Source: a virus. Taken from it: a stretch of 22,555 nt of DNA. The notes below the pieces were generated by a model, which did not search any database, was not told the DNA's origin, and was given only the letters and a program-made list of their open reading frames with translations. The stretch is taken from the IMG/VR virus record IMGVR_UViG_3300046304_000020, positions 1 to 22,555 of that record; one strand, written 5' to 3'. Within the stretch, counting starts at the first letter, position 1; every line of letters begins with the position of its first letter. Of the stretch, positions 4,662 to 20,703 are shown piece after piece. The position numbers were made by a program, and so were the translations under genes.

Positions 4662-5567
4662 TCAAATTTGTCCGGCCTTTTTCATTTCGTTGTACCGGTC
4701 TAACGCTGCATCTTTTTCTTCGGGTGTCTTGGCATCTGTAAATGCTTTCAACAATTCAGCACCCGTTGATGCTGTTACGGGTTTTGCCGCTCCCCCCGAC
4801 CCTGCCCCACCGTCGCCTGCGTTACCCGCACTACTCCTGTCGGTGGATGCTTTAAATTCAAAGGCACGTTCTGCAACAGATTTTACATGGTTGTCAAATG
4901 GTATTCTATTGCCATGACCGTCCTGTAAGTCGTTGCCGTCTTTGTCAATTAGGACAATCTTCCCATCTCTAACCTCGTAGTTACTCGCCTCCAATTCCCT
5001 TACAAACAAATTGTCTATTTGGGTTTTGGCTTTTATGGTGTCTGTTGGAAGTATTGGGTTAAGCCCGTTGAATATTGCCAATGCCTGATCTTTCACCGTT
5101 TGAAAGGTTTGAGATTTTGTCATCTGCACCTTAAACTCATTCACCTTTTGGTCGAAGTCCGTTTCAAGTTGCTTTACTTTGTTGTTGCTTGCTTCTACTG
5201 CATCCAAATACCATTTAGATTTCAGCACTTTGTCCTCCGTAAGCTCTGTTCCCCCCTGCGGTGCTTTGGCTGATAGAACCGTTTCAATAAGTTTGAACGG
5301 GTCGGCCTCGTCAACTTCGAGTTTATACTGCTCTTTTATTTTGGCTGTGATGGCCGTGATGGCATCTGTCTTTGCTTTTTCGATAGCTGCTTTGGTGTCA
5401 GGCTTTAGTTTTTTAACCCTTTCAACGTCAAGTGCAAGAAACGATTCCAATGCGGTATCATTAATTTCTTTCTCCGTGCCTTCCTTATAAAGGATAGGGG
5501 TAATTTCCTCTGAACTCAGGCCGTGTGATTTATTTAACAAGCCTATTAAGATTTCTTCTGCTGTCAT
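4662..5567 (-). CDS. Capsid scaffolding protein (301 aa)
   Basis: ATG at 5567 overlaps the TGA of the 65-aa gene (ATGA); TGA at 4662-4664. Residues about 40-160 are charged and helical with heptad-like Lys/Glu patterning, as expected of a coiled-coil scaffold. A Gly/Ala/Ser-rich linker (about residues 245-265) precedes a short helical C-terminal segment rich in Lys and Glu, which in scaffolds is the capsid-binding end. It lies immediately upstream of the major capsid gene, the standard place. No protease motif is visible, so the scaffold is probably released or cut by another protein. Function is from composition and context. Confidence 0.75.
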   Translation of the reverse strand: MTAEEILIGLLNKSHGLSSEEITPILYKEGTEKEINDTALESFLALDVERVKKLKPDTKAAIEKAKTDAITAITAKIKEQYKLEVDEADPFKLIETVLSAKAPQGGTELTEDKVLKSKWYLDAVEASNNKVKQLETDFDQKVNEFKVQMTKSQTFQTVKDQALAIFNGLNPILPTDTIKAKTQIDNLFVRELEASNYEVRDGKIVLIDKDGNDLQDGHGNRIPFDNHVKSVAERAFEFKASTDRSSAGNAGDGGAGSGGAAKPVTASTGAELLKAFTDAKTPEEKDAALDRYNEMKKAGQI

Positions 5568-5761
5568 TTTTTCTTTTTGTTTGCTTCAATTTGTTTTTTG
5601 ATGTTTTTGATCTCCTGTATTGTCCTTTCAGACAACTGTACCACCTTGCGGTCATTTTCGTCCGCCCTACTCCAGTGTTTATACACCGTGTCTTTTTGGG
5701 CTTCCCACTCGGCCTCGCTTATCTCGCGGGGGTACTTGGCAAGTGTGCTTACTATTTTCAT
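5564..5761 (-). CDS. 65-aa charged protein in the head operon
   Basis: Both ends overlap their neighbours by 4 bp: ATG at 5761 with the stop of the upstream gene, and TGA at 5564-5566 with the scaffold ATG. The product is highly charged, helical and ends in a poly-Lys tail (QIEANKKKK). The coupling makes it a real gene. It may assist assembly or be a decoration or minor scaffold component. No family is recognised. Confidence 0.6.
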   Translation of the reverse strand: MKIVSTLAKYPREISEAEWEAQKDTVYKHWSRADENDRKVVQLSERTIQEIKNIKKQIEANKKKK

Positions 5762-6252
5762 GCGATAAGCCCCAATAGTGTGGCCTTGTTCATTATAGGT
5801 GTGGTTGTAACACCTTCCTGCCTCAATATGTTCCGCAATTCAGCGTTTGTCATTTCGCTGTATATAGATGTGTTGGCCGTTGTGGTTATTGATGCCCTCG
5901 GAACCCCCGTGAGAAGCAACCCTTCCAACTCCATGTTTTCCATATCAGCATCGAATGGGATTCCCTGTTCCTGTAACTTGGCCACCAATTCTTTTCTTGT
6001 GGTTTTGGGTGCGGTGTTTAGTTCAACACCTTCGGGCAACCCACCATTCTTTCTTGTTTCAACAATTTGTTTGTACCTCTCAATTTCATCTCTTGTTTTG
6101 TCCGAAAGTACGGGCGGTTGGAATTTGATTTCCTTCCAGTTTCTCTGTTGGTTAGGGTCGTTTTTAATAACCTCCCAATTTTTCGGTGAGAAACGTCTTT
6201 CTACCCTTCTCCCATTCGGGAACTCTAAAAACGCATAAACATCTGCTTGCAT
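5758..6252 (-). CDS. Head-operon protein with two HeH/SAP-like helical repeats (164 aa)
   Basis: ATG at 6252, TGA at 5758-5760 overlapping the next ATG. The C-terminal half holds two similar helix-extended-loop-helix units: TRKELVAKLQEQGIPFDADM at about residues 84-103 with its following helix, and TNAELRNILRQEGVTTTPIM at about residues 135-154 followed by NKATLLGLI. Such HeH/SAP/LEM-like units often bind nucleic acid or mediate contacts in phage head and Rho-N-like proteins. The N-terminal half (YAFLEFPNGRRVERRFSPKN) is basic and beta-like. It is first in the scaffold-capsid run and has its own promoter at 6300-6333. Confidence 0.6.
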   Translation of the reverse strand: MQADVYAFLEFPNGRRVERRFSPKNWEVIKNDPNQQRNWKEIKFQPPVLSDKTRDEIERYKQIVETRKNGGLPEGVELNTAPKTTRKELVAKLQEQGIPFDADMENMELEGLLLTGVPRASITTTANTSIYSEMTNAELRNILRQEGVTTTPIMNKATLLGLIA

Positions 6253-6750: not shown

Positions 6751-7599
6751 CGTATGACGACACCGATGGCCACCGAGATCAATAAATGGGTCATATCCCC
6801 TGTTTTTCCCTTGAAAGTGCGGTTTTTTATCGTACCCACCGAAGGTGTCCTCCGCAGTGCCAAAGAGAGTTATCTGTTCATTGGTAAAGACTTTGCCATT
6901 CCTGTGTATGCAGAAATCGCGTGATTCTTTCACCAACCCCCCAGCATATACGGCATAGCCCATGCCTACCCTTTTAGATAGTTGGACATTTACCGAACGG
7001 TCAAATTGGGCGAAGCTGTCGTAGGCAAAGGTGTCGAAGTGTTTAGCAAAACCACCCTGTAATTCTTTTGTACCCTTTACTAATTCTCTGACCTCCTTTA
7101 TATATATGTCTCTTGGTTTGACGGGTGAGATTATTGCTTTCAATGTCATTTGTTTGATTTCATTTCTAAGGCCTGTGTCTTTGACGAATGACTCCAAGAA
7201 ACCACCTTTGGTTAGTGCCTGTCCATTTTCGCTGATGCCAAAGCGTTGAAAGGTTCTTTGCTTTACTATCTCGGCATTTTCTTCTGCCATAGTGGGAACG
7301 ACAGATTGGTAATAGGCGGTATTCAGCACCATTATCTCACTATATCCTTTGACCATTGTTTTTATGACGGGTAGGATTTCATCTTTTACGAACTGTTCCC
7401 AGAGGCGATCAATGTAATTGAGTTTTGCTATGTTTGATTTAGTGTTGGCCAATGTTCTGTCACCGTCTAATTTGGCAATAAACTTGTCTGTCAGTTCATC
7501 ATACAGCTTATTTTCAAGGCCTGTAACTTTCTTTCTCAGCAAGGTTTCCTTTGTGTCAAGCAGTTCTGCCTTCAGTTGTTCGTATTCAGGATAGTCCAT
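6700..7599 (-). CDS. Minor head protein, Mu gpF / SPP1 gp7-like (299 aa)
   Basis: ATG at 7599 shares its A with the portal stop (TAATG); TAA at 6700-6702. The N-terminal two thirds is helical and charged. The C-terminal domain has the head-morphogenesis signature: SRDFCIHRNGKVF (about residues 226-238) and later GGHRCRH (276-282), equivalent to the conserved Cys and His-x-Cys-x-C/H positions of gpF-like proteins. Family members join the portal inside the head and are needed for head assembly or DNA ejection. Position straight after the portal is the classical one. Confidence 0.82.
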   Translation of the reverse strand: MDYPEYEQLKAELLDTKETLLRKKVTGLENKLYDELTDKFIAKLDGDRTLANTKSNIAKLNYIDRLWEQFVKDEILPVIKTMVKGYSEIMVLNTAYYQSVVPTMAEENAEIVKQRTFQRFGISENGQALTKGGFLESFVKDTGLRNEIKQMTLKAIISPVKPRDIYIKEVRELVKGTKELQGGFAKHFDTFAYDSFAQFDRSVNVQLSKRVGMGYAVYAGGLVKESRDFCIHRNGKVFTNEQITLFGTAEDTFGGYDKKPHFQGKNRGYDPFIDLGGHRCRHTLNYISNSLAKKRLGAA

Positions 7600-9425
7600 T
7601 ACTGCTGCATATCACCTTTTGGCAAAACTATTTCAGGTTCATTCTTTTTGTTTTCGGCCACGATGGAATCCACCTTTGCTTTTATGAGCATCTTTTGTTT
7701 TTCGTAGGTCATATCGTAGAACCACACTTCTTTCGCTTCCATTTCCAACTCCTCAAAGATAGGGTCGTAGTTGGCATATAGCGTTTTTGTAAATACCGTC
7801 ACCTCGTTGCCTGCCATGATCACAAGAATTTCTTCCTGTGTCTTGCCATTGAATGGATGGTGTCTGCTTTTGCACTCGTAGCGTTTCAATGCTACTTGGT
7901 CGTCACGGTAGATGTCTTTCATCACCTCGCCCGTTAGGTTTGTGCGAACCGCCCCTGGGGCATTTGATTGGTTGGCCATTTGAAGGTCGAGCAACTTTTG
8001 GTTGAAAGACTTTAGGCCGAAGTCAGATGGGGGAACGCGGTTGACGATCAGCCCATCGTCATTGTCGGTAAAGGCAGCACATATCCGCACTATCTCCATG
8101 TATATCTTGGCCATTTGGATAGCGTAGTCGTACAATGGGTCATACACATTTTGAAGGTCAATATTTTTGGCCGTAGCCGTTTTTTCAACGGTGTCCTGTG
8201 TGAATGTCTCGGAGTTAAAGCAGGCACGGTGGAACGATGTCCTGAGATACTCCTGCCATTCACCCATAAACTTCAGGAACTCCGTGTCGGGGTGGAAATA
8301 CACCACCAACTTAGAAATATCAATAACATCATCACCTTTTCTTGGAAGGTCGAATAGGATTACCTCCTGTGCCGATGTTGGAACCAATCGTGCTGTACCG
8401 CCGCACTTAGAACACTCATGTGGCTTTTGACCTGACGACGGACATAGCCCTGTCGAAGAATCTGGCTTACACCTATCGGCATACATCACTTTTTGCGGGT
8501 GTGCGTGAAGGGCTTGCGTCAAGTCCATCTCACTCACCGCCTTGATAGTCTTTTTAAGATATGGCACACCGCTATGGAAAGGGTTTACATAGGTTTCGCC
8601 CTGCGTGAAAATATCCTGAACGTATCCTATCCTTTTGGCCTGTACCATGCCTGCACCAGAAAAGTGTTTTTCGAGGGTATAGAATTTAGAGTTTGCTTTG
8701 TTGGATATAACCTCACCGCTTTGGTCACTGAGCGAAGTCGAAGTGGGTTGTTCAAACAATTCCGTTATCACCCATGCCCAATCGGTGAAGTAGAGGGTGT
8801 ATCTTGTGCCTTCCTTTGTTAGTGTGTCACCATTGGCGGCAACCTTTGAGAGTGTAATCTTTTCTTTGATAAACAGGTAGTTCAATGATCTGTCACGGTT
8901 ATAACCGTAGTCAATGGCCGAATGGGAAGAATATTCAACGGGTCTTGGTTTGGCTTTTTCTGTGGCTGAGTCGAAAGGGTCAAACTCCACCACTATCCAA
9001 GCGTTGGGGTCTGAGAAGGACAAGTCCTTCACCCTTGTTTTTAGGTAATGGTCAATAGAGTCGCCGCCATAGAAGGTATCTGTAACCTTTTGCAGTGCCT
9101 CTGTTTTTGTTTCAAAGCCTTCGCCTTTGTCACCTTGTTCAAAGTCGAGTTTATCAATCAGTGGTCTTGCTCGGTAGGTTTTCTCGTATGTCTTTATCAC
9201 ACCGCCTGTCATGGCAGGGGTGATGGATTCTGTCAGTGACACCCTTTGTTTAAAGTCTTCGGGAGATTCCCGCCGAACAACCTGACGGAGATCAACATCC
9301 TGACCTTCGCCCGTTATCATACGCATGTAGTATTCGGCCCATGTGACGGCCCTGTCGTACCATTTATGTTTAGGTTCTTTCTCAATAGCTTTGAGTACGT
9401 ACACCCTTGCCTGTTCTGTGTTCAT
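7599..9425 (-). CDS. Portal protein with an inserted zinc-finger-like loop (608 aa)
   Basis: ATG at 9425, TAA at 7599-7601. Size, charge and place between terminase and minor head protein mark this as the portal, the dodecameric ring through which DNA enters the head. The N-terminal region (WYDRAVTWAEYYMRMITGEG, about residues 22-41) and the tryptophan-rich clip/stem region fit. Cysteines 319, 328, 338 and 341 (CPSSGQKPHECSKCGG) form a zinc-finger-like loop that is not part of the usual portal core. Residues 228-235 (TSTSLSDQ) are encoded by a copy of the 22-bp interspersed repeat, a possible small insertion. Transcription likely starts at 9450-9482. Confidence 0.8.
   Translation of the reverse strand: MNTEQARVYVLKAIEKEPKHKWYDRAVTWAEYYMRMITGEGQDVDLRQVVRRESPEDFKQRVSLTESITPAMTGGVIKTYEKTYRARPLIDKLDFEQGDKGEGFETKTEALQKVTDTFYGGDSIDHYLKTRVKDLSFSDPNAWIVVEFDPFDSATEKAKPRPVEYSSHSAIDYGYNRDRSLNYLFIKEKITLSKVAANGDTLTKEGTRYTLYFTDWAWVITELFEQPTSTSLSDQSGEVISNKANSKFYTLEKHFSGAGMVQAKRIGYVQDIFTQGETYVNPFHSGVPYLKKTIKAVSEMDLTQALHAHPQKVMYADRCKPDSSTGLCPSSGQKPHECSKCGGTARLVPTSAQEVILFDLPRKGDDVIDISKLVVYFHPDTEFLKFMGEWQEYLRTSFHRACFNSETFTQDTVEKTATAKNIDLQNVYDPLYDYAIQMAKIYMEIVRICAAFTDNDDGLIVNRVPPSDFGLKSFNQKLLDLQMANQSNAPGAVRTNLTGEVMKDIYRDDQVALKRYECKSRHHPFNGKTQEEILVIMAGNEVTVFTKTLYANYDPIFEELEMEAKEVWFYDMTYEKQKMLIKAKVDSIVAENKKNEPEIVLPKGDMQQ
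8723..8744 (+). repeat. 22-bp interspersed repeat, copy C inside the portal gene
   Basis: GGTCACTGAGCGAAGTCGAA plus GT. Its outer ends (CACT...AGTG) are complementary, so it can form a loose hairpin. On the coding strand it keeps the portal frame and specifies TSTSLSDQ. I recall this sequence type as frequent in Bacteroidota chromosomes, which could not be checked here. Confidence 0.7.
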
Positions 9426-9586: not shown

Positions 9587-11119
9587 TCACTCAAAATAAT
9601 CATCAAAGCAGCTTGCAAGAAAATACTCAATAGCATCGCCTGCGTGACCATTTTTCTGATATTCCTGCCCCGAAGAATCTTTCACCTTAGTTTTTCTCTT
9701 ACCCCCGTCAGGCCCTTGGGTACACATGGTAAAGTCGGCCACAAGTTCACCGCAACGCGGGTCAACCTCGATGTCAATATTAAAACCACCGTAGAGCATC
9801 TTATTAAGAAAGTCTGCCCGTTTGACCACAGAAGGGTTGCTGTATAAAACCCTGTTAGAGCTTTTGTTGAGCAGGCCATCGGGGGCATATCCGATAAACT
9901 GTTCTATCATATCGTAGTTATGTTCGAAGTCTTTATTTTGGGTGCTGCGGGCGTGGCCCGAGGCGTCACCATATATAAAAGCACCTGAGTTGTGTTTTAG
10001 GATGTCGAAATACTTGTACCTTACCGCGAGGGCCGCACTTTCGGAGTTGCTGTCGGGTGGCCGCATAGGAAATTCATCAATGAATCTCACCTTATATCTA
10101 TTATCAACAAAAGCAATTTGGGCAATGCCGACATATAGATATGGTATGACGTTAAAGTCAAAGAAAATGTGCAGGGCGATGGTTGGGTCGTATGGGCATG
10201 GTTTGACGTGTTTGATATAATTATATTCATGGTAGAACTCTCCGCCCTGCTTCGACACTGGGCTGCCGAAGATAAACCTATCAATTTTATGTTGGTTGCC
10301 CGCAAAGTCTTCCAAAAGATTCTCTATGTACCCTTCGGGCAGGTTGGCCTTATTGGAATATATGGTAGAATTGATCACCAGCTTTCTTTCTGTCTCCAAC
10401 TTAAAATAGCTTTTAGCATATAGCTTAGAGACGATCTCCGAGTAGTGTTTTGGAAGGTCGAACCAATCGTTTATCCATTCCACCTTAGCGGGGGAAGTGA
10501 AAATATACAATGGGTTGAAGGACTTAACCACCTTGCCGTTTTCTGTCATCAGCGGAGCATCTTTGCTTGTCCTTGTCCACAGGCCGCTATTTTCATTTTC
10601 GTGAACCGTTTTAAGTGAATATTTTTTATCCCCATCGACCACAAAGATTGCCTTTTGACGGAGTCTGCCGACGATAACATCTTTCACGGCTTCTTCCCTT
10701 GTATCCTTAGTTTCATCGAGCAAGGCCCAAGCAAATTCAAAACCATCAATAAGCTGATAATTTTCAAGCGATGCAATACAAATCAGTCCGCCATTATAGA
10801 GACTAATCATGCCATCATAATCGGTCAGGGAGTGAAGTTTTGGCCAGTTATCCTGTGGGCGTTTGTTAACGACATAGTGAATATCCTTCACTAAGCCAAA
10901 CTCGTCATGCCACATATCGAACATTCTTTTGAGTGTAGCCCCTGAAAGTTGTTTATAGGCATTAGCGGCCACAAGGCCGATTGCATCGGGGAATTGGTCA
11001 AGAAACTTTATAGCCATCATGCCCAAAAGCCATGACTTGCCCGATCCAATCCCCGATACAAACAGGTTTCTTTCTTTATCCGAATTATAAATTTCTTTCT
11101 GAGGGTTTGATAGTGCCAA
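9587..11119 (-). CDS. terL: Terminase large subunit (510 aa)
   Basis: TGA at 9587-9589; the start is TTG at 11119, the first plausible codon ahead of the conserved N-terminus. Residues 23-29 (GIGSGKS) are the Walker A loop, W131-E136 (WALLDE) the Walker B with catalytic Glu, and TSP at 209-211 the coupling motif. The C-terminal nuclease domain has acidic residues at D321 (IFFDFNV), D385 (YGDASG) and D495 (HAGDAIEYF), as in RNase H-like terminase nucleases. The enzyme cuts concatemeric DNA and pumps it through the portal with ATP. Length is normal and no intron or break is seen. The small subunit is not adjacent; a candidate lies 1.7 kb away at 12839. Confidence 0.92.
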   Translation of the reverse strand: MALSNPQKEIYNSDKERNLFVSGIGSGKSWLLGMMAIKFLDQFPDAIGLVAANAYKQLSGATLKRMFDMWHDEFGLVKDIHYVVNKRPQDNWPKLHSLTDYDGMISLYNGGLICIASLENYQLIDGFEFAWALLDETKDTREEAVKDVIVGRLRQKAIFVVDGDKKYSLKTVHENENSGLWTRTSKDAPLMTENGKVVKSFNPLYIFTSPAKVEWINDWFDLPKHYSEIVSKLYAKSYFKLETERKLVINSTIYSNKANLPEGYIENLLEDFAGNQHKIDRFIFGSPVSKQGGEFYHEYNYIKHVKPCPYDPTIALHIFFDFNVIPYLYVGIAQIAFVDNRYKVRFIDEFPMRPPDSNSESAALAVRYKYFDILKHNSGAFIYGDASGHARSTQNKDFEHNYDMIEQFIGYAPDGLLNKSSNRVLYSNPSVVKRADFLNKMLYGGFNIDIEVDPRCGELVADFTMCTQGPDGGKRKTKVKDSSGQEYQKNGHAGDAIEYFLASCFDDYFE

Positions 11120-11310: not shown

Positions 11311-11667
11311 GTGTCAGTAACAAATTTTGAAGAACTAACCTTAGAGCTAACGGACAAAGAGTTAAAGCTCATACCGCTATTAGAAAGTGGGTTTAGCCGT
11401 TACACCATAAACAACCCAATCAAATCGGCAGAGATAGTGGCCAAGTTAAACGCCAACCCGAACATTTCACTAAACTTCACAGGGCCACGCTTACGTAAAT
11501 GCGTCAACTACATCCGTTCCCGTGGCCGCCTGCCAATTATAGCAACCTCTGACGGCTATTTTGTCTCATACGACCCAACCGTCATCCAATCACAAATACA
11601 ATCACTCAGGGAACGGGCAAATTCAATCATCTCCTGTGCCGATAACTTAGAACATTTTTTAGAATGA
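11311..11667 (+). CDS. Winged-helix phage DNA-binding protein (118 aa)
   Basis: Start is GTG at 11311, TGA at 11665-11667. The middle segment GPRLRKCVNYIRSRGRLPII (about residues 58-77) followed by SDGYFVSYD (about 80-88) has the helix, turn and beta-wing layout seen in small phage regulators and replisome-organiser-like proteins. The C-terminal helix (IQSQIQSLRERANSI) could dimerise. It ends 7 bp from the convergent RepL-like gene. It may regulate the replication module or load replication proteins. The fold call is by pattern and the function is open. Confidence 0.6.
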   Translation: MSVTNFEELTLELTDKELKLIPLLESGFSRYTINNPIKSAEIVAKLNANPNISLNFTGPRLRKCVNYIRSRGRLPIIATSDGYFVSYDPTVIQSQIQSLRERANSIISCADNLEHFLE

Positions 11668-11671
11668 AAAG

Positions 11672-11690
11672 ATTTACTGTTTTAGTAAAT
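11672..11690. repeat. AT-rich inverted repeat at the 3' end of the RepL-like gene
   Basis: ATTTACT (11672-11678) and AGTAAAT (11684-11690) pair around GTTTT. The core TACT...TTTTAGTA resembles the 18-bp operators at 12218 and 12250. It may be a third binding site or a weak bidirectional terminator between the convergent genes. Confidence 0.4.
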
Positions 11691-12198
11691 TGTCCTTCTT
11701 GAAGTCGGAAAAGATTGTAGTCACCTTCTCATCATACAACCGCCCCTTCCTCCCTATGAAAGGATTGAGCATATAACAGACCCGCACCTCACCATATATC
11801 AACCCTTTAATCTGATATAAAATCCCTGCCTTCATTAACCTCTTCATTAACTGAATATACATCGCCTCCGACTTAACCTCTAAATACCTCTGTAACGTCT
11901 CATTCGTATGGGGCCTGTTCCCATTATAAACAATGCTCATAGGCGTTCTCACTACCACAGCCATCTTTAACACATTCGCCAAGTCAGAATTGTTTATCAT
12001 TCTCGCAATCACAGCCAAAGCAGCCGAATCTATCACAGCATAGTCACTTGAACTAATTACAACCATACCACTATTTTCATGCACCACCACCTTAGTTCCA
12101 TTCTTAGCCTCCGACGATAGCAACTCACCAGTGGATGAATTGTGATACTGACTTAAATCAACTTCTACCTTACGCGTTGCCTTTATTACCCTAACCAT
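11674..12198 (-). CDS. RepL-like winged-helix replication/regulatory protein (174 aa)
   Basis: The ATG at 12198 (MVRVIKATRKVEVDL) is preferred over an upstream in-frame ATG at 12297, because the intervening codons run through a promoter and two palindromes. TAA at 11674-11676. The centre has a winged-helix pattern (SEAMYIQLMKRLMKAGILYQ, then the wing and YMLNPFIGRKG), and the ending YMLNP...KG...F is typical of RepL-like plasmid and phage initiators. Beside it lie an AT-rich repeat block and operators sharing a 9-mer, as expected of an autoregulated initiator. A purely regulatory role is the main alternative. Promoter spacing predicts a leaderless mRNA. Confidence 0.55.
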   Translation of the reverse strand: MVRVIKATRKVEVDLSQYHNSSTGELLSSEAKNGTKVVVHENSGMVVISSSDYAVIDSAALAVIARMINNSDLANVLKMAVVVRTPMSIVYNGNRPHTNETLQRYLEVKSEAMYIQLMKRLMKAGILYQIKGLIYGEVRVCYMLNPFIGRKGRLYDEKVTTIFSDFKKDNLLKQ

Positions 12199-12202
12199 GC
12201 CA

Positions 12203-12210
12203 CAAATATA
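12203..12210 (-). promoter_or_regulatory. -7 box of the RepL-like gene, leaderless
   Basis: Minus strand TATATTTG, then TGGC, then ATG at 12198. The expected -33 position (about 12232-12235) has no TTTG and falls inside operator 1, so the promoter may be weak or activator-dependent, and bound protein should block it. Confidence 0.55.
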
Positions 12211-12217
12211 AGGCAAA

Positions 12218-12235
12218 ACTACTATTTTTAGTAGT
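12218..12235. promoter_or_regulatory. Operator 1, perfect 18-bp palindrome
   Basis: ACTACTA-TTTT-TAGTAGT, perfect 7-bp arms, lying 7 bp upstream of the -7 box of the RepL-like gene. Identical to operator 2, which starts 32 bp further on (about three helical turns). Confidence 0.7.
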
Positions 12236-12249
12236 CTGCAGCCTTTTAA

Positions 12250-12267
12250 ACTACTATTTTTAGTAGT
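12250..12267. promoter_or_regulatory. Operator 2, identical 18-bp palindrome
   Basis: Second perfect copy of ACTACTA-TTTT-TAGTAGT. Read on the minus strand both copies contain ACTAAAAAT, the same 9-mer found in two of the phased repeats at 12360-12512. Confidence 0.7.
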
Positions 12268-12359
12268 CCAAAAAATCCGCCGTAACCCACACCACACTTA
12301 CGTTACAACCACTTTTTTTAACCTCCTTCCCTTATTATTATTAGAAGCACCCCTTTCTG

Positions 12360-12512
12360 ACTAAAAAAAATTCTGTCAAAAAACCCCCTAATAACCCCCT
12401 TTTTAACTAAAAATCTCCACGAAGGTCTTACACAATACCCATTTTTACTAAAAAAATTCTAAGAAGGGTAGTTATTAAGTCTCTTTTTAACTAAAAATCT
12501 CCAAGAAGGGTA
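12360..12512 (+). repeat. Four imperfect repeats phased at 41-46 bp
   Basis: Core ACTAAAAA occurs at 12360, 12406, 12447 and 12490, each preceded by a T-rich run and, for the last three, followed by a GAAGG element. The copies at 12399-12426 and 12483-12510 match at 26 of 28 positions. The spacing is close to four helical turns, so a bound protein would sit on one face. Confidence 0.65.
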
Positions 12513-12718
12513 TATAGCCCTACTCATACCTACTGTATAGGGGGGTATAGGGGGCAAATGTTATATAATCCCTTTTATGTTAACTTGATTCCCTTGAATA
12601 AGTTGTAATAAATATACCCTACACATACATTTTGAATAATATAATACTTTTTAGGTGTTTTTAATAGTGTCTTCTAAGGGATAGTATAGGGCAAAAATTG
12701 ATTGATTGATTGTTTGGG

Positions 12719-12782
12719 ATTGACTACCTTTTTAGCCTATTTTATTACAACTACCTATTGACTACCTTTTTAGCCTATTTTA
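12719..12782 (+). repeat. Two perfect 26-bp direct repeats
   Basis: Copies at 12719-12744 and 12757-12782, beginning ATTGACTACC and ending AGCCTATTTTA, 38 bp apart start to start. They lie just beyond the 3' end of the small terminase gene. Confidence 0.75.
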
Positions 12783-12838
12783 AAGGGTTGTTCTATTGGG
12801 TCACCTTATTACAGAGACACTAACTAACGGTTGTTAGG

Positions 12839-13411
12839 TTATTCTTCGACGGTAGATTCTTCCAATGTCAGGTAGTCAGGAAGTTTAAGGGGTTTATAGT
12901 TAGTTTGGTCTTGTGACTTGTTATTGTTATATCCCAATGACTGGCCGGTGTTGTTAAGGGCAAACATTATAGATATATCAGAAGGTTCAATATATCGTTC
13001 TTCTGTCAGGGTTAACACCTGGCCTTCCTTGTTAATAGCTTCTTTTTTGGCAACTCTTTTTATTCCTGCTATACGTTGCCTCAGTGATGAAACTGCAAGG
13101 TATCTGATCTCATCAACTGTTGAAAGTACTATCTGTTTAACCATGTCGTTAAGGTCAATATCTTTCTGCTGCCAATCCCAATAAGTCTGCCTATGTATTC
13201 CTATCGCATTACATGCTTCACCTATGTTACCATCAAACAATTTTACAGCTTCCAAAAACAGGCTTCTTTTCTCATTATAAGACATGTAAGGATTTATTTG
13301 CTTCATTGCATACTTTGGTTCATCGTCCAAAATAGACATTTCATTCCCATTATTAGAATCAATTACCGTAATTAGATTTTGTTCTGAAAGTTGCTTTTGT
13401 TTTTTGTTCAT
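12839..13411 (-). CDS. Probable terminase small subunit, helix-turn-helix (190 aa)
   Basis: ATG at 13411, TAA at 12839-12841. Residues about 61-82 (GNIGEACNAIGIHRQTYWDW) are a clear helix-turn-helix of the type found in small terminases that resemble phBC6A51-like proteins. The following helical region (residues about 90-125) would form the oligomer core, and the acidic C-terminus could contact the large subunit. Small terminases recognise the packaging site, which often lies in or beside their own gene; the direct repeats at 12719-12782 are candidates. It is separated from the large subunit by 1.7 kb. A transcription regulator is the alternative. Confidence 0.62.
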   Translation of the reverse strand: MNKKQKQLSEQNLITVIDSNNGNEMSILDDEPKYAMKQINPYMSYNEKRSLFLEAVKLFDGNIGEACNAIGIHRQTYWDWQQKDIDLNDMVKQIVLSTVDEIRYLAVSSLRQRIAGIKRVAKKEAINKEGQVLTLTEERYIEPSDISIMFALNNTGQSLGYNNNKSQDQTNYKPLKLPDYLTLEESTVEE

Positions 13412-13435
13412 AGACTATTTTCTGAAATGATTTTA

Positions 13436-13470
13436 CAAAGTTAATCAATCTGTCTAATATACTATTCAAA
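13436..13470 (-). promoter_or_regulatory. Promoter of the small terminase gene
   Basis: Minus strand TTTG (13470-13467), 23 bp, TAACTTTG (13443-13436), with the ATG at 13411 about 20 nt beyond the predicted start site. Spacing is 2 bp longer than in the best promoters here. Confidence 0.5.
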
Positions 13471-13785
13471 CCTTGTTTTAGGCCATTTTTAAGCGATTTA
13501 AGACGTTTTTACCTTGTTTTGGTATCCTAATATTGACCTTCATTAGTTTGGGCAATACGTTGAAAATGACTACTTTAATAGACAGAAATAGTCAAAAAAA
13601 GTTTTCATTTTATAGTGTTTTGGCATGGTTTTTTATTTCTCCGTTTGTATTGTATTTAAGACACTGTCTACTTTTTTATTTCATTGATTATCAATACTTT
13701 ATAGCAAAAGTGTTTTCTTCTGTCCTTTTTAAAATACACTTCTTTGTTTTCTTACTTTTATAAGTCTCTGATTATTAAGTATTTG
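13471..13785. other. AT-rich intergenic stretch between divergent operons
   Basis: No convincing gene. A 76-codon open frame (13533-13763) starts with TTG and encodes an almost pure Phe/Leu/Ile string, as AT-rich non-coding DNA does. The motif CCTTGTTTT occurs twice (near 13471 and 13511). Confidence 0.4.
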
Positions 13786-13793
13786 TATGTTTG
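13786..13793 (+). promoter_or_regulatory. -7 box for the rightward early operon
   Basis: TATGTTTG matches TAnnTTTG, 45 bp before the first ATG of the operon. No TTTG lies at the proper -33 distance, so this is a tentative site. Confidence 0.35.
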
Positions 13794-13838
13794 GCAAAGG
13801 TGTTGCAAATAGGTTCACGTATTTAAACGAAACGAAAA

Positions 13839-14018
13839 ATGACACAATCCACTAAATTAGACAGATTAACCGAGTACTTCAATTTACAGGAGGAGCTTTT
13901 TAGTATTCAAGATTCGCGGGATAATTGGCCAGATGGTATGACATACGGCACAATGTGCGAACGGATTAATGAATTGACCATTGAAGTAAGGAAATTAGCG
14001 AAACAATTAACTTTTTAA
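13839..14018 (+). CDS. 59-aa acidic helical protein, first gene of the rightward operon
   Basis: ATG at 13839 after an A-rich leader (AACGAAACGAAAA), TAA at 14016-14018. Two predicted helices (LDRLTEYFNLQEELFSIQ and MCERINELTIEVRKLAKQL) could form a coiled coil. It stands 22 bp before the 421-aa gene and shares the same style of A-rich leader, which supports a real gene. Function unknown. Confidence 0.6.
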   Translation: MTQSTKLDRLTEYFNLQEELFSIQDSRDNWPDGMTYGTMCERINELTIEVRKLAKQLTF

Positions 14019-14040
14019 TTCACTTAAACAAAGCAAAAAA

Positions 14041-15317: not shown

Positions 15318-16301
15318 ATGAACGAAAATAAACTAATAGAAATCTTAGCTATTCAATCTGAAAGTTATAACCAAACGGCAATGTTTCAATACATTGTAAG
15401 CGAATTGACCGAAATGGGTTGCGAATTATACGAATATAACGGCTGCATATATGCGACGAAAGGCAACGCGGATTTATACACTTGTGTCGTTTCTCACATG
15501 GATACAGTACATACTATTTGCGAAGATTTAACACCTATCGGGATTAATGGCAATATAACAGGATTTAATGCCGTGACTATGGAGCAAACCGGAATCGGCG
15601 GCGATGACAAAGTAGGGATTTTTATTGCCATTCAATGCCTTGAATCTTTCGATAATATCAAAGCCGTATTTTTTCGTGATGAAGAGGTAGGGTGCGAAGG
15701 TAGTTACGATCCCGACCATGATTTTTTTAATGATTGTAGCTTTGTTCTGCAATGCGACCGAAAAGGAAATTCGGGTTTCGTAACTAATGCCGGCGGGACA
15801 GAATTAAGCTCAAAGCAATTTCAAAACGATTTAAAGCCTATTTTGAAGCAATACGGATATAAAACAGTTAACGGCATGATGACCGACGTAATGGCTTTAA
15901 AAGAATCTGATATACTATGCAGTATGGCAAATATTGAGTGCGGTTATTATAACCCGCACACCGCCCAGGAATATGTTAATATTAACGACGTTCAAAATTG
16001 CCTGAACATGGTTAAAAAGATTATTACAGATATGAGCGGCAAAGATTATCCCTGTAAATATCAGGCACCGAAACACAAAGGTTACAAGTCTGCAAAATAC
16101 GACTACTTCAATAGATGGGATAAAATAGATTCTATTGAAGGCAATGACGATTTTTGTACCTGTGACTGCTGTAATGAAGAATCAAAACTGGAATATATTT
16201 CAGACTTTAATATGATGCTATGTTCTAAATGTGTCTCAAACTATTTGCCCGAAAGAGTAAACAAATGGGATTGGTTGAATGATGACGAAACTAAATTTTA
16301 A
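15318..16301 (+). CDS. Clan MH (M20/M28-type) zinc aminopeptidase-like protein (327 aa)
   Basis: ATG at 15318 after AAACGAAA, TAA at 16299-16301. The complete two-zinc site is visible: H60 and D62 (SHMDT), D96 (GIGGDDKVG), E122-E123 (RDEEVG), D147 (QCDRKG) and H214 (NPHTAQEYV). This order is that of peptidase T and M28/M42 aminopeptidases, which cut short peptides. The lid/dimerisation domain of M20 enzymes seems missing, so the catalytic core is compact (about 240 residues). A C-terminal extension has a zinc-ribbon-like cluster (C280, C282, C284, C285, C302, C305). There is no signal peptide, so it acts in the cytoplasm. Such enzymes are unusual in phage early operons; host peptide metabolism or processing of a phage peptide are possible roles. 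Confidence 0.8.
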   Translation: MNENKLIEILAIQSESYNQTAMFQYIVSELTEMGCELYEYNGCIYATKGNADLYTCVVSHMDTVHTICEDLTPIGINGNITGFNAVTMEQTGIGGDDKVGIFIAIQCLESFDNIKAVFFRDEEVGCEGSYDPDHDFFNDCSFVLQCDRKGNSGFVTNAGGTELSSKQFQNDLKPILKQYGYKTVNGMMTDVMALKESDILCSMANIECGYYNPHTAQEYVNINDVQNCLNMVKKIITDMSGKDYPCKYQAPKHKGYKSAKYDYFNRWDKIDSIEGNDDFCTCDCCNEESKLEYISDFNMMLCSKCVSNYLPERVNKWDWLNDDETKF

Positions 16302-17210: not shown

Positions 17211-17609
17211 TTAAAGGCCGTAGCGTGCTTTTATAATCATTCTGCACTTGCCCACTAATTTAGTGACCGTCTTTTCTTTGATGTAAAGAAGGTTCCCGAT
17301 GTTGTGAACGCCATGTAGCACGCTCGAATGATCCCGATGCCCGATTTCTGCCCCTATTTCACACAATGAGTTTGTGGTATGCCGCCTTGCCAACCAACAG
17401 TAAACATGCCTCGCATTGACCCGCTCCCGTTTGCGTGACTGACTGACAATATTTTCCGGCGATTGCCCTGAAACATTAGACACTATTTCGACAATGTCTT
17501 TTAATCTCATGCTCCGATCATGCCTGTCAACATCTACCAACCCTGGATATAACAAGACGCTGATGTGCGGAATTGGATTTTTCTCTTCTATGACGTTATT
17601 TTCTAACAT
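17211..17609 (-). CDS. Stand-alone DnaA domain IV-like DNA-binding protein (132 aa)
   Basis: ATG at 17609 directly after an A-rich leader, TAA at 17211-17213. Residues about 32-120 match the C-terminal DnaA-box-binding domain: a helix (RLKDIVEIVSNVSG), the basic loop and helix (RKRERVNARHVYCWLARRHT) and the signature GHRDHSSVLHG (90-100), equivalent to the GGRDHTTVLHA region of bacterial DnaA. The AAA+ ATPase and N-terminal domains are absent and no upstream frame supplies them. Such a protein could recognise DnaA boxes without ATP, either recruiting host replication proteins or competing with host DnaA. It is the last gene of the leftward set and converges on the rightward operon. Confidence 0.82.
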   Translation of the reverse strand: MLENNVIEEKNPIPHISVLLYPGLVDVDRHDRSMRLKDIVEIVSNVSGQSPENIVSQSRKRERVNARHVYCWLARRHTTNSLCEIGAEIGHRDHSSVLHGVHNIGNLLYIKEKTVTKLVGKCRMIIKARYGL

Positions 17610-18438: not shown

Positions 18439-19311
18439 CTAAATTAGCCATTCTTCTAATTGCCTGTAATATTCTGCCCATAGTTTCGACAGGTCACGCT
18501 TGATTGCTTCAGGGTGTTCCCCCTCAAATGGTGCAGTGAAGCATTCCATCCTGTTTCTGTATTCATGCACCCCGTTATATATGTCCTCAATTGCCTGTCT
18601 TTGGTAGTCGCCCCCTAATACCCACCTCAAATATACCATGTTGAAATAATTTGGAATAATATTCATTGGATTTAAACTTTCCGTGTAGTACCGTATTTTT
18701 TCAAAGACTTGGGTAGGGAAAACATAAGAGTAGTGGTACATTTGAATGCCCGTATGTTCAAACAATTTGTCCCCGTCAATGTGTTTTGGGTGGAAGTTTT
18801 CACAGGTCAGTCGAGGTGGTCTGTGAGAAGCCCATGTAGCACCTTTCTCGTACTTAAACACCCTCCTGAAATTGTTTGGCAATTGTTCAAAACCTGTTAA
18901 ATATCTATCAAATCCACCATAGAAAGTACAACTCCTGACGGCTACCGAATCGGGGCGTACCACCACAAGAAAGTCTTTTAGCTTTTCTAAGTCCTCACCC
19001 TTCCAACATTCATCACTGTCCACCTGTAAAAGATAATCTGTGTCAGGATTTACCAAGTGCATCACAGCATTGGCCTGCTCTGTCTTTTCCTCATACTGCC
19101 CGTGAATTACTTTTATCGTGTTCTTGGTGTCGGGAAAATGATCAATAATCTCATTCGTACCGTCTGTTGATGTGGTGTAACCTTTGTCTTGCCAATAACT
19201 GACCGGGCCTTCACTAATCAATATTTGACCTACATGGTCGTATAATGATTCTAAAACCTGTTTCAAAACAAAGTTTCCATTAAATACAATTATGACTGCC
19301 GTTAGTTTCAT
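18439..19311 (-). CDS. Family 2-type glycosyltransferase (290 aa)
   Basis: ATG at 19311 overlaps the stop of the 59-aa gene; TAG at 18439-18441. The N-terminus (MKLTAVIIVFNGNFVLKQVL) is the nucleotide-sugar binding strand and helix of a GT-A fold. E34 begins the segment after the second strand, and D98-S99-D100 in YLLQVDSDECW is the metal-binding DxD. The C-terminal part (MYHYSYVFPTQVFEKIRYYT) has the conserved His/Tyr acceptor-loop region of this group. There is no membrane segment, so it is cytoplasmic. Likely targets are host surface glycans, virion proteins or modified bases; the sequence does not say which. Confidence 0.8.
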   Translation of the reverse strand: MKLTAVIIVFNGNFVLKQVLESLYDHVGQILISEGPVSYWQDKGYTTSTDGTNEIIDHFPDTKNTIKVIHGQYEEKTEQANAVMHLVNPDTDYLLQVDSDECWKGEDLEKLKDFLVVVRPDSVAVRSCTFYGGFDRYLTGFEQLPNNFRRVFKYEKGATWASHRPPRLTCENFHPKHIDGDKLFEHTGIQMYHYSYVFPTQVFEKIRYYTESLNPMNIIPNYFNMVYLRWVLGGDYQRQAIEDIYNGVHEYRNRMECFTAPFEGEHPEAIKRDLSKLWAEYYRQLEEWLI

Positions 19312-19487
19312 TTCTTAAATTGTTCGTTAAAATCCTTCATCCATTTTTCGTGATCGACTCTCATCTTTTTATTAAATTCGTCAAAGAACTTACGATCTTC
19401 TCGTATAGCCTCATAGCTGAAATGTTGAAACAAAATCAGTACAACACCAATAAGGATTACAGGCAAAAGCGTTCCAATAATACTCAT
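19308..19487 (-). CDS. 59-aa membrane-anchored coiled-coil protein between two glycosyltransferases
   Basis: ATG at 19487 overlaps the stop of the upstream glycosyltransferase, and the TGA at 19308-19310 overlaps the ATG of the downstream one. The product starts with a membrane helix (IIGTLLPVILIGVVLILF, residues 3-20) and continues as a charged helix (EAIREDRKFFDEFNKKMRVD and beyond). Double ATGA coupling makes it a real gene. It could anchor or cluster the glycosyltransferases at the membrane, which is inference from position. Confidence 0.7.
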   Translation of the reverse strand: MSIIGTLLPVILIGVVLILFQHFSYEAIREDRKFFDEFNKKMRVDHEKWMKDFNEQFKK

Positions 19488-20281
19488 ATCTTAAAACTTT
19501 TTACAACACTCCAATAATTTTCATAAATAGCCCTCAATTTCGGGTTGGCCATTACCTGTTCGTTAGCCGTGTATTGTTGATGTTGGGTGCTTGGGGTAAA
19601 TCCATCTTCATCCCACTTGAGCTTCGAGAAATGTGTAAAGCATACATCACCAATATCCTTTTCACTCATTACCTGCCACTGCCACATGGCCCCGTGTTTC
19701 ACACAATCTATGGCAATATTTTCTGTCATCATCGGAAATGCTTCGAGGAATCGCTGGTCAAAACAAGTGGCCAATTCTTTTGGCTCTTTTGTCAAGACAG
19801 CATTTGCCCACCAATCAAGTATGGGAAAGCCATTTCGTGAGAAATATACCACGCCACAATTATACAACCCTTCCGACCTGTTCATCTGCTTCGTGAATTG
19901 AAGGTGCGAAAATATACCTACGTCTGCATTGCCCAATGACTTATAGAGAAAATCTATATCTTTATGAAAGTATATATCGGAATCTATATAACAGATTGAA
20001 TCAGGATTTTCTTCCATTGCGACCCATTGGGTGAAGTAACTTGCAAGGGTATAACAGTAGTCTGAATAGTTCCGTTCTTTTAGTTGTTTCAACCCTACCC
20101 ATTCGTGTTTGTATGGGATTACATACACATTTGTCGTTGGGTCTAATAGGATGTCGTAGGTCTCATCATCGAGGCAACAGTAATGTACCGTTATTTCCTG
20201 ACTTGATTTTTTTAACGATTCTATCAGGGCCAATCCTTGTGAAAGATAATTGATGTCTGATAATGTTGTTAGGTGTATCAT
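19484..20281 (-). CDS. GT-A glycosyltransferase, GT8-like (265 aa)
   Basis: The ATG at 20281 (MIHLTTLSDINYLSQGLALI) is chosen because it overlaps the NinB-like stop as ATGA; an ATG 12 bp earlier is possible. The DxD motif is D100-S101-D102 (CYIDSDIYF), followed by YNCGVVYFSRNGF and FDQRFLEAFP, then a late His (FTHFSKLK), the layout of nucleotide-diphospho-sugar transferases of the GT8 type. No membrane segment. With the second enzyme and the 59-aa membrane protein it forms a three-gene coupled unit downstream of the NinB-like gene. Confidence 0.78.
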   Translation of the reverse strand: MIHLTTLSDINYLSQGLALIESLKKSSQEITVHYCCLDDETYDILLDPTTNVYVIPYKHEWVGLKQLKERNYSDYCYTLASYFTQWVAMEENPDSICYIDSDIYFHKDIDFLYKSLGNADVGIFSHLQFTKQMNRSEGLYNCGVVYFSRNGFPILDWWANAVLTKEPKELATCFDQRFLEAFPMMTENIAIDCVKHGAMWQWQVMSEKDIGDVCFTHFSKLKWDEDGFTPSTQHQQYTANEQVMANPKLRAIYENYWSVVKSFKI

Positions 20282-20703
20282 GTTTTTCTCCAATCTGTTT
20301 GTGGTTCGGGGATAAACACATTCAAATGCTCAGATGCGAATTGGTAAATACGCTCCCAATAAGCCATTGAATCAGTAGTCGTCATTTCCTGTGTGCTTCC
20401 ACCATAGTGAGTTACTTCCCCTGTCTGTTCGTTTACAAATTGCTTCTTGTTGAACATCGCTTTTAAGATTTCGTGGGTGTCGTCTGAATCAACAGCATGG
20501 CCTAAGTCTAATAGCCCCTTCGTACAAAGAGGTATAATAACACCCCAATAGAAAGAGTTCTGCAAGTTAGTCCTTTTCTTAGAAACCCTTTCTAACTTCA
20601 TCTCATAATTACCATCTTTCAACAATGAAACGGCAACGTCAAAACTCTGACGGTTTCTTATCCGTAGTTTCCCATTAGATATAGTCGCTGAGAAGGTTTT
20701 CAT
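20278..20703 (-). CDS. NinB-like recombination protein (141 aa)
   Basis: ATG at 20703 overlaps the stop of the upstream gene, TGA at 20278-20280. The segment KKRTNLQNSFYWGVIIPLCT (about residues 42-61) and the length match NinB/Orf proteins of lambda-like phages, which bind single-stranded DNA and help RecA-type recombination. The C-terminal part (SMAYWERIYQFASEHLNVFI, PEPQTDW) also fits. The neighbourhood lacks a recognised single-strand-binding protein or exonuclease, so its partners are unknown. Confidence 0.66.
   Translation of the reverse strand: MKTFSATISNGKLRIRNRQSFDVAVSLLKDGNYEMKLERVSKKRTNLQNSFYWGVIIPLCTKGLLDLGHAVDSDDTHEILKAMFNKKQFVNEQTGEVTHYGGSTQEMTTTDSMAYWERIYQFASEHLNVFIPEPQTDWRKT

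Follow-up and report, generated by a model that had tools for sequence, protein, structure and literature searches.

The stretch of DNA analysed here at its full length, called the window, is a fragment of viral DNA, 22,555 bp long; its left 11,966 bp are 99.97% identical to a second contig, which extends 7.2 kb further, into genes resembling tail genes. On the minus strand of the window the genes for the small (terS) and large (terL) terminase subunits enclose a RepL-like gene, which is preceded by a pair of palindromes and a repeat-rich block that the initial annotation described as a candidate phage origin. The features of the locus, and one distant gene that bears on its interpretation, are the following.

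9587..11119, minus strand: terminase large subunit, grouping with the PBSX/Terminase_6N type
11311..11667, plus strand: 118-aa protein (phrog_2113, E 2.3e-8), convergent with the RepL-like gene and lying between terS and terL
11674..12198, minus strand: RepL-superfamily winged-helix-like protein of 174 aa, with TGE and Asn-Pro motifs
12203..12210, minus strand: -7-like box TATATTTG, fitting TAnnTTTG, just before the start codon
12214-12221, minus strand: second -7-like box TAGTTTTG, fitting TAnnTTTG
12216..12236, minus strand: proximal palindromic operator-like site (repeat family D6)
12248..12268, minus strand: distal palindromic operator-like site (D6), 32 bp (3.05 turns) from the proximal one
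12351..12376, plus strand: repeat copy 1 (CCCTTTCTGACTAAAAAAAATTCTGT), 4.4 turns from copy 2
12377..12496, no strand: 120-bp stretch with the strongest curvature in the window (183.8, against a mean of 39.1 and an sd of 22.4)
12389..12425, plus strand: repeat copy 2 (..CTTTTTAACTAAAAATCTCCACGAAGG), the D1 reference copy, core at 12406
12431..12467, plus strand: repeat copy 3 (..ATTTTTACTAAAAAAATTCTAAGAAGG), core at 12447
12473..12509, plus strand: repeat copy 4, sharing 86% identity over 37 bp with copy 2, core at 12490
12535..12554, plus strand: tandem GTATAGGGGG x2
12561..12760, no strand: melting-element-like 200-bp stretch, with only one other in the window as unstable; the low-stability DNA as a whole (12556-12760) ranks in the top 0.1% of positions
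12697..12716, plus strand: ATTG run
12719..12744, plus strand: perfect 26-bp direct repeat, copy 1 (repeat family D3)
12757..12782, plus strand: perfect 26-bp direct repeat, copy 2, 38 bp (3.6 turns) from copy 1
12839..13411, minus strand: terminase small subunit (Flavobacterium phage 1/32 TerS, 24.7%, E 3e-10; weak PHROG matches)
17211-17609, minus strand: DnaA domain IV protein that stands alone, the ATPase domain being absent (Bac_DnaA_C, E 3.1e-20)

Elsewhere in the window, 15318-16301 (plus strand) encodes a peptidase M42/PepT-like protein, barely past the cut-off (Pfam M42, E 1.4e-5), and 18439-20293 (minus strand) holds two adjacent genes that look glycosyltransferase-like by eye.

Searches of Pfam, PHROGs, NCBIfam and the PDB gave no acceptable match for the 174-aa protein, the RepL model PF05732 finds nothing in the window, and a single-sequence AlphaFold2 prediction is too low in confidence to interpret (mean pLDDT 35.9). 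No relatives were found by tblastn in phages or plasmids, and there is no RepL-like gene in 30 terminase-related viral contigs. A first relative was found among 395 Bacteroidota genomes (E 3.3e-6), and a two-row profile yielded three more among 399 genomes of one Bacteroidota order; a five-row profile found none at E 1e-5 in 395 genomes across the whole phylum, and the family is therefore rare. A profile of the four homologues, built without the window protein, scores it at 57.6 bits over its whole length, the next protein of the window reaching only 4.5 bits. A RepL reference set was assembled from 12 proteins of plasmids and one phage, its query being confirmed by the matched records at 100% over residues 1-144. 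In a profile-profile comparison with this set, the five-member family aligns to RepL over 139 columns with 97.3% probability (E 2.7e-11), and the alignment takes in the helix-turn-helix region and both motifs, the N-terminal TGE and the Asn-Pro. The family profile scores 74.8, and the highest score among 320 background ORFs, taken as single sequences, is 28; this background is fairly compared only with family members scored in the same way, whose scores are 26-52. Taken alone, the window protein scores weakly in hhalign (26, 13.7%), within the top of the background, and the RepL conclusion therefore rests on the family. The residues N145 and P146 are invariant in the family and are aligned with the Asn-Pro pair of RepL (Asn-131/Pro-132 in the numbering of PMC10655114). 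Thus, while the family libraries give no match for the protein that the initial annotation called RepL-like, the profile of its homologues supports homology of the family to RepL (PF05732).

All four homologues lie on Bacteroidota islands, next to tyrosine recombinases (integrases) of a single type; the island cargo includes, on L145, a type I restriction system and, on L146, RadC and a helicase. The homologue of L142 (1126-2043, minus strand), whose island has a type I restriction system, is 305 aa long and apparently carries the winged-helix/NP domain twice. On L139 the integrase (7472-8668) beside a RepL-like homologue is split in two frames (236 and 158 aa), and that island may therefore be immobile.

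The control region of the RepL-like gene is laid out around its two palindromes. The -7 box of Bacteroidota has the consensus TAnnTTTG, and the two boxes that fit it, TATATTTG and TAGTTTTG, adjoin or overlap the proximal palindrome. The homologue L141 likewise has two palindromes, 31 bp apart (three helical turns), just before its start codon, the second of which contains TATATTTG, as read from the sequence; among 300 shuffles of each, a paired-palindrome score as high is reached twice for L141 and never for the window. No such pair is found upstream of the other three homologues. Because the palindromes abut or overlap a -7-like box, and because L141 has the same layout, it is plausible that the Rep-like gene is controlled by its own two palindromes, a proposal that does not depend on any word shared with the repeats. 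Autorepression by the 174-aa protein may fairly be inferred.

Upstream of the operators, the core ACTAAAAA occurs on the plus strand at 12360, 12406, 12447 and 12490, spaced by 46, 41 and 43 bp, and the plus strand of the window has no further copy. These positions and spacings, together with the two perfect 26-bp repeats and the ATTG run, are as the initial annotation gave them, and an unprompted repeat search recovers the families D1-D3 and D6, both perfect 26-mers and both operator copies. Among 300 dinucleotide-preserving shuffles of the 540 bp, none has four copies of ACTAAAAA, none a 32/37 repeat and none an exact 26-bp repeat, and the repeats of the block therefore exceed AT-rich noise. 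The helical phasing that had been claimed for the array is present in copies 2-4, where 41 and 43 bp add up to 84 bp, or 8.0 turns, but does not extend to copy 1, which at 46 bp (4.4 turns) from copy 2 is out of phase. No DNA match to the block was found in phages, its repeat words are absent from the viral contigs searched, and an Rfam scan returned no match above threshold.

Curvature, scored by a dinucleotide wedge model across the whole 22.5 kb, has its maximum at the repeat array, and its next-highest value at 12153-12272, where the operators and the beginning of the gene lie. The curvature of the array is reached by none of 500 shuffles of the region in 120- and 160-bp windows and by 2 of 500 in 80-bp windows, and the model supports the presence of phased tracts in the array. 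As in an iteron origin, there are direct repeats near a putative initiator gene, and adjoining them an AT-rich, easily melted stretch, although the intergenic DNA at 13588-13790 is equally unstable. The AT-rich intergenic stretch around it (13412-14040; 629 bp, 30% GC), located between divergent genes, melts about as easily as the block and is a further candidate for an origin or a promoter.

The initial annotation had gone further, proposing that the initiator controls its own dose through a site common to operators and iterons. The 9-mer ACTAAAAAT, on which this was based, does occur in repeats 2 and 4 and in the minus strand of the operators. Of 500 shuffles, however, 79 have at least as many 9-mers common to region and operators, which is the chance level and leaves the match without weight. 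Repeats 2 and 4, moreover, are one duplicated unit (86% over 37 bp) and therefore count once. There is no 10-mer common to repeats and operators, and the half-site ACTACTA of the operator palindrome (ACTACTA-TTTT-TAGTAGT) is confined, within the intergenic region, to the operators, with none in the repeats, so that the dose-control argument falls. In AT-rich DNA a shared A-rich 9-mer is no evidence for a common binding site. The operator 18-mer has no further site in the window with fewer than five mismatches; its single occurrence in each of 14 stretches of other viral contigs was taken as chance, and a GACTAC link between the operator motif and the 26-bp repeats was found unpersuasive, GACTAC occurring 16 times in the window. 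Operators that contain the site of the repeats, the feature invoked by the initial annotation, are thus missing here, but such sharing is not a feature of every iteron replicon.

The reading of the block as a phage origin is accordingly partly supported, through its anatomy (the repeats, the strongest curvature, the unstable stretch and the Rep-like neighbour), while the shared-site argument drops out. There are no DnaA boxes near the block, and the whole window has one match, against about four expected by chance; DnaA boxes are not required of all phage origins. The cumulative GC skew, proposed earlier as a check, does dip at the block, but the dip is merely local and the skew follows gene direction.

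Among known systems, the RepL replicons (PF05732, pSN2 family) are alike in having a small wHTH-type protein with TGE and (L/I)NP..xxG motifs. In the Tunicatimonas pelagia plasmid NZ_CP120685, three copies of AGTGTTGTA, at distances of 22 and 42 bp, stand just before repL, a pattern with modest support (33 of 1000 shuffles are as good). The locus differs from these replicons in that its protein misses the Pfam model and its repeat words are others. The iterons of lambda are spaced by about 20 bp, whereas the repeats of the window are spaced by ~42 bp and lie outside the initiator gene, and lambda O and the putative initiator of the window are unrelated by sequence as far as tested. What the block does have in common with a lambda-type origin (O protein) is four spaced repeats, curvature over them and an adjacent AT-rich stretch, the lambda origin being built of bent iterons adjoining an AT-rich region (PMC7466680). 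Plasmids of the pSN2 type are reported to replicate by a rolling circle, with an identifiable dso (PMC5703833). The lytic replicon of phage P1 (RepL/oriL) similarly ties an AT-rich stretch to a phage-borne Rep gene (PMC9948254), but its oriL sits inside repL, unlike the block described here, which lies outside the Rep-like gene. Comparable to the chromosomal homologues is also SEN1990 of ROD21, likewise a wHTH protein on integrative islands that is distant from plasmid RepL, but which lacks the conserved Asn-Pro that the window protein family has (PMC10655114). Although annotated as RepL, SEN1990 is dispensable for replication of this excisable island and affects transcription (PMC10655114). 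Since SEN1990 is dispensable in this way, and since the four homologues are also island genes beside integrases, membership of the family is insufficient to establish initiation.

In the reading that we prefer, and to which we give slightly less than an even chance, the gene (11674-12198) and the block (12199-12838) would together form a compact RepL-superfamily replicon that a Bacteroidota phage has captured and carries between its two terminase genes. The RepL-superfamily protein would bind its two palindromes and repress its own promoter, the curved array of ~42-bp repeats would serve as a scaffold for the initiator or for a phage or host partner, and the strands would open in the AT-rich stretch at ~12560-12760, where replication would start.

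The surroundings of the block would also suit another function. Intrinsic bends and repeats are typical of the pac sites recognised by TerS, as in SPP1, and many TerLs of the PBSX/Terminase_6N type package by headful. As the block directly abuts terS, and the TerL groups with large subunits of this type, the array could be a packaging initiation site: with TerS bound to the curved repeats immediately downstream of terS, headful packaging by TerL would begin there, and the RepL-like gene would be incidental. This reading, a serious if unlikely rival, is made doubtful by the comparison with relatives, for which 80 viral and 23 genome loci related by TerL were gathered. Among those examined closely, terS mostly runs directly into terL, with no RepL-like gene between them in any, and none of the 12 relatives with an identified terS, nearly all of which have the two genes adjoining, has a bend comparable to 184 within 700 bp of it (87-145); in a search of the viral contigs no homologue of the window's TerS was found. 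Since these relatives have neither the gene nor a comparable bend, gene and curved upstream block are, on this comparison of sequences, a lineage-specific addition, in which the bend goes with the gene and not with terS. The exception in spacing is L044 (IMGVR_UViG_3300044940_000160), in which the two terminase genes are separated by a simple heptamer array, about 47 tandem copies of the 14-bp unit CTGTTCACTGATAA (two heptamers) filling the gap at 5243-5883. Heptamer arrays occur elsewhere on L044 too, with shorter ones on L107, and this 7/14-bp array was for that reason set aside as support for a pac site. That a captured island-type RepL replicon would combine initiation of replication and of packaging on one curved cis block, thereby coupling copying with packaging, we consider distinctly unlikely.

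The block might instead be devoted to transcription control, with no origin at all. In that case the wHTH protein would be a regulator with the palindromes as its operators, and the curved A/T tracts would activate from upstream or bind nucleoid proteins. The palindromes that abut or overlap -7-like boxes are in keeping with this, as are the homologues beside integrases, in the manner of island regulators, and the role of the RepL-annotated SEN1990 in transcription and not replication (PMC10655114). The array, however, is located ~150-310 bp upstream of the start codon, which is unusually far for a simple promoter, and the protein retains the Asn-Pro conserved in RepL proteins and missing in SEN1990, so that we hold this explanation to be about as unlikely as the packaging site, and as serious a rival. 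Finally, the block could be a decayed or neutral leftover of an island, consisting of functionless, recent A/T-rich duplications, with the origin elsewhere. Its copies, 86% and 100% identical, do look recent, and the stand-alone DnaA domain IV protein, which could itself be or assist another initiator, offers a possible origin neighbourhood at 17211-17609. An intact open reading frame and a phased curvature beyond that of shuffles of the same sequence nevertheless speak against decay, and there are no DnaA boxes near the DnaA-like gene either, which makes a leftover very improbable.

The preferred reading, that of a captured RepL-superfamily replicon, leaves a defined candidate block of ~1.2 kb (11674-12838) for an origin assay, in a group in which, to our knowledge, few phage origins have been mapped. 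It is accompanied by a comparison of profiles that relates an unnamed family of proteins, encoded on Bacteroidota islands, to the RepL family of replication proteins.
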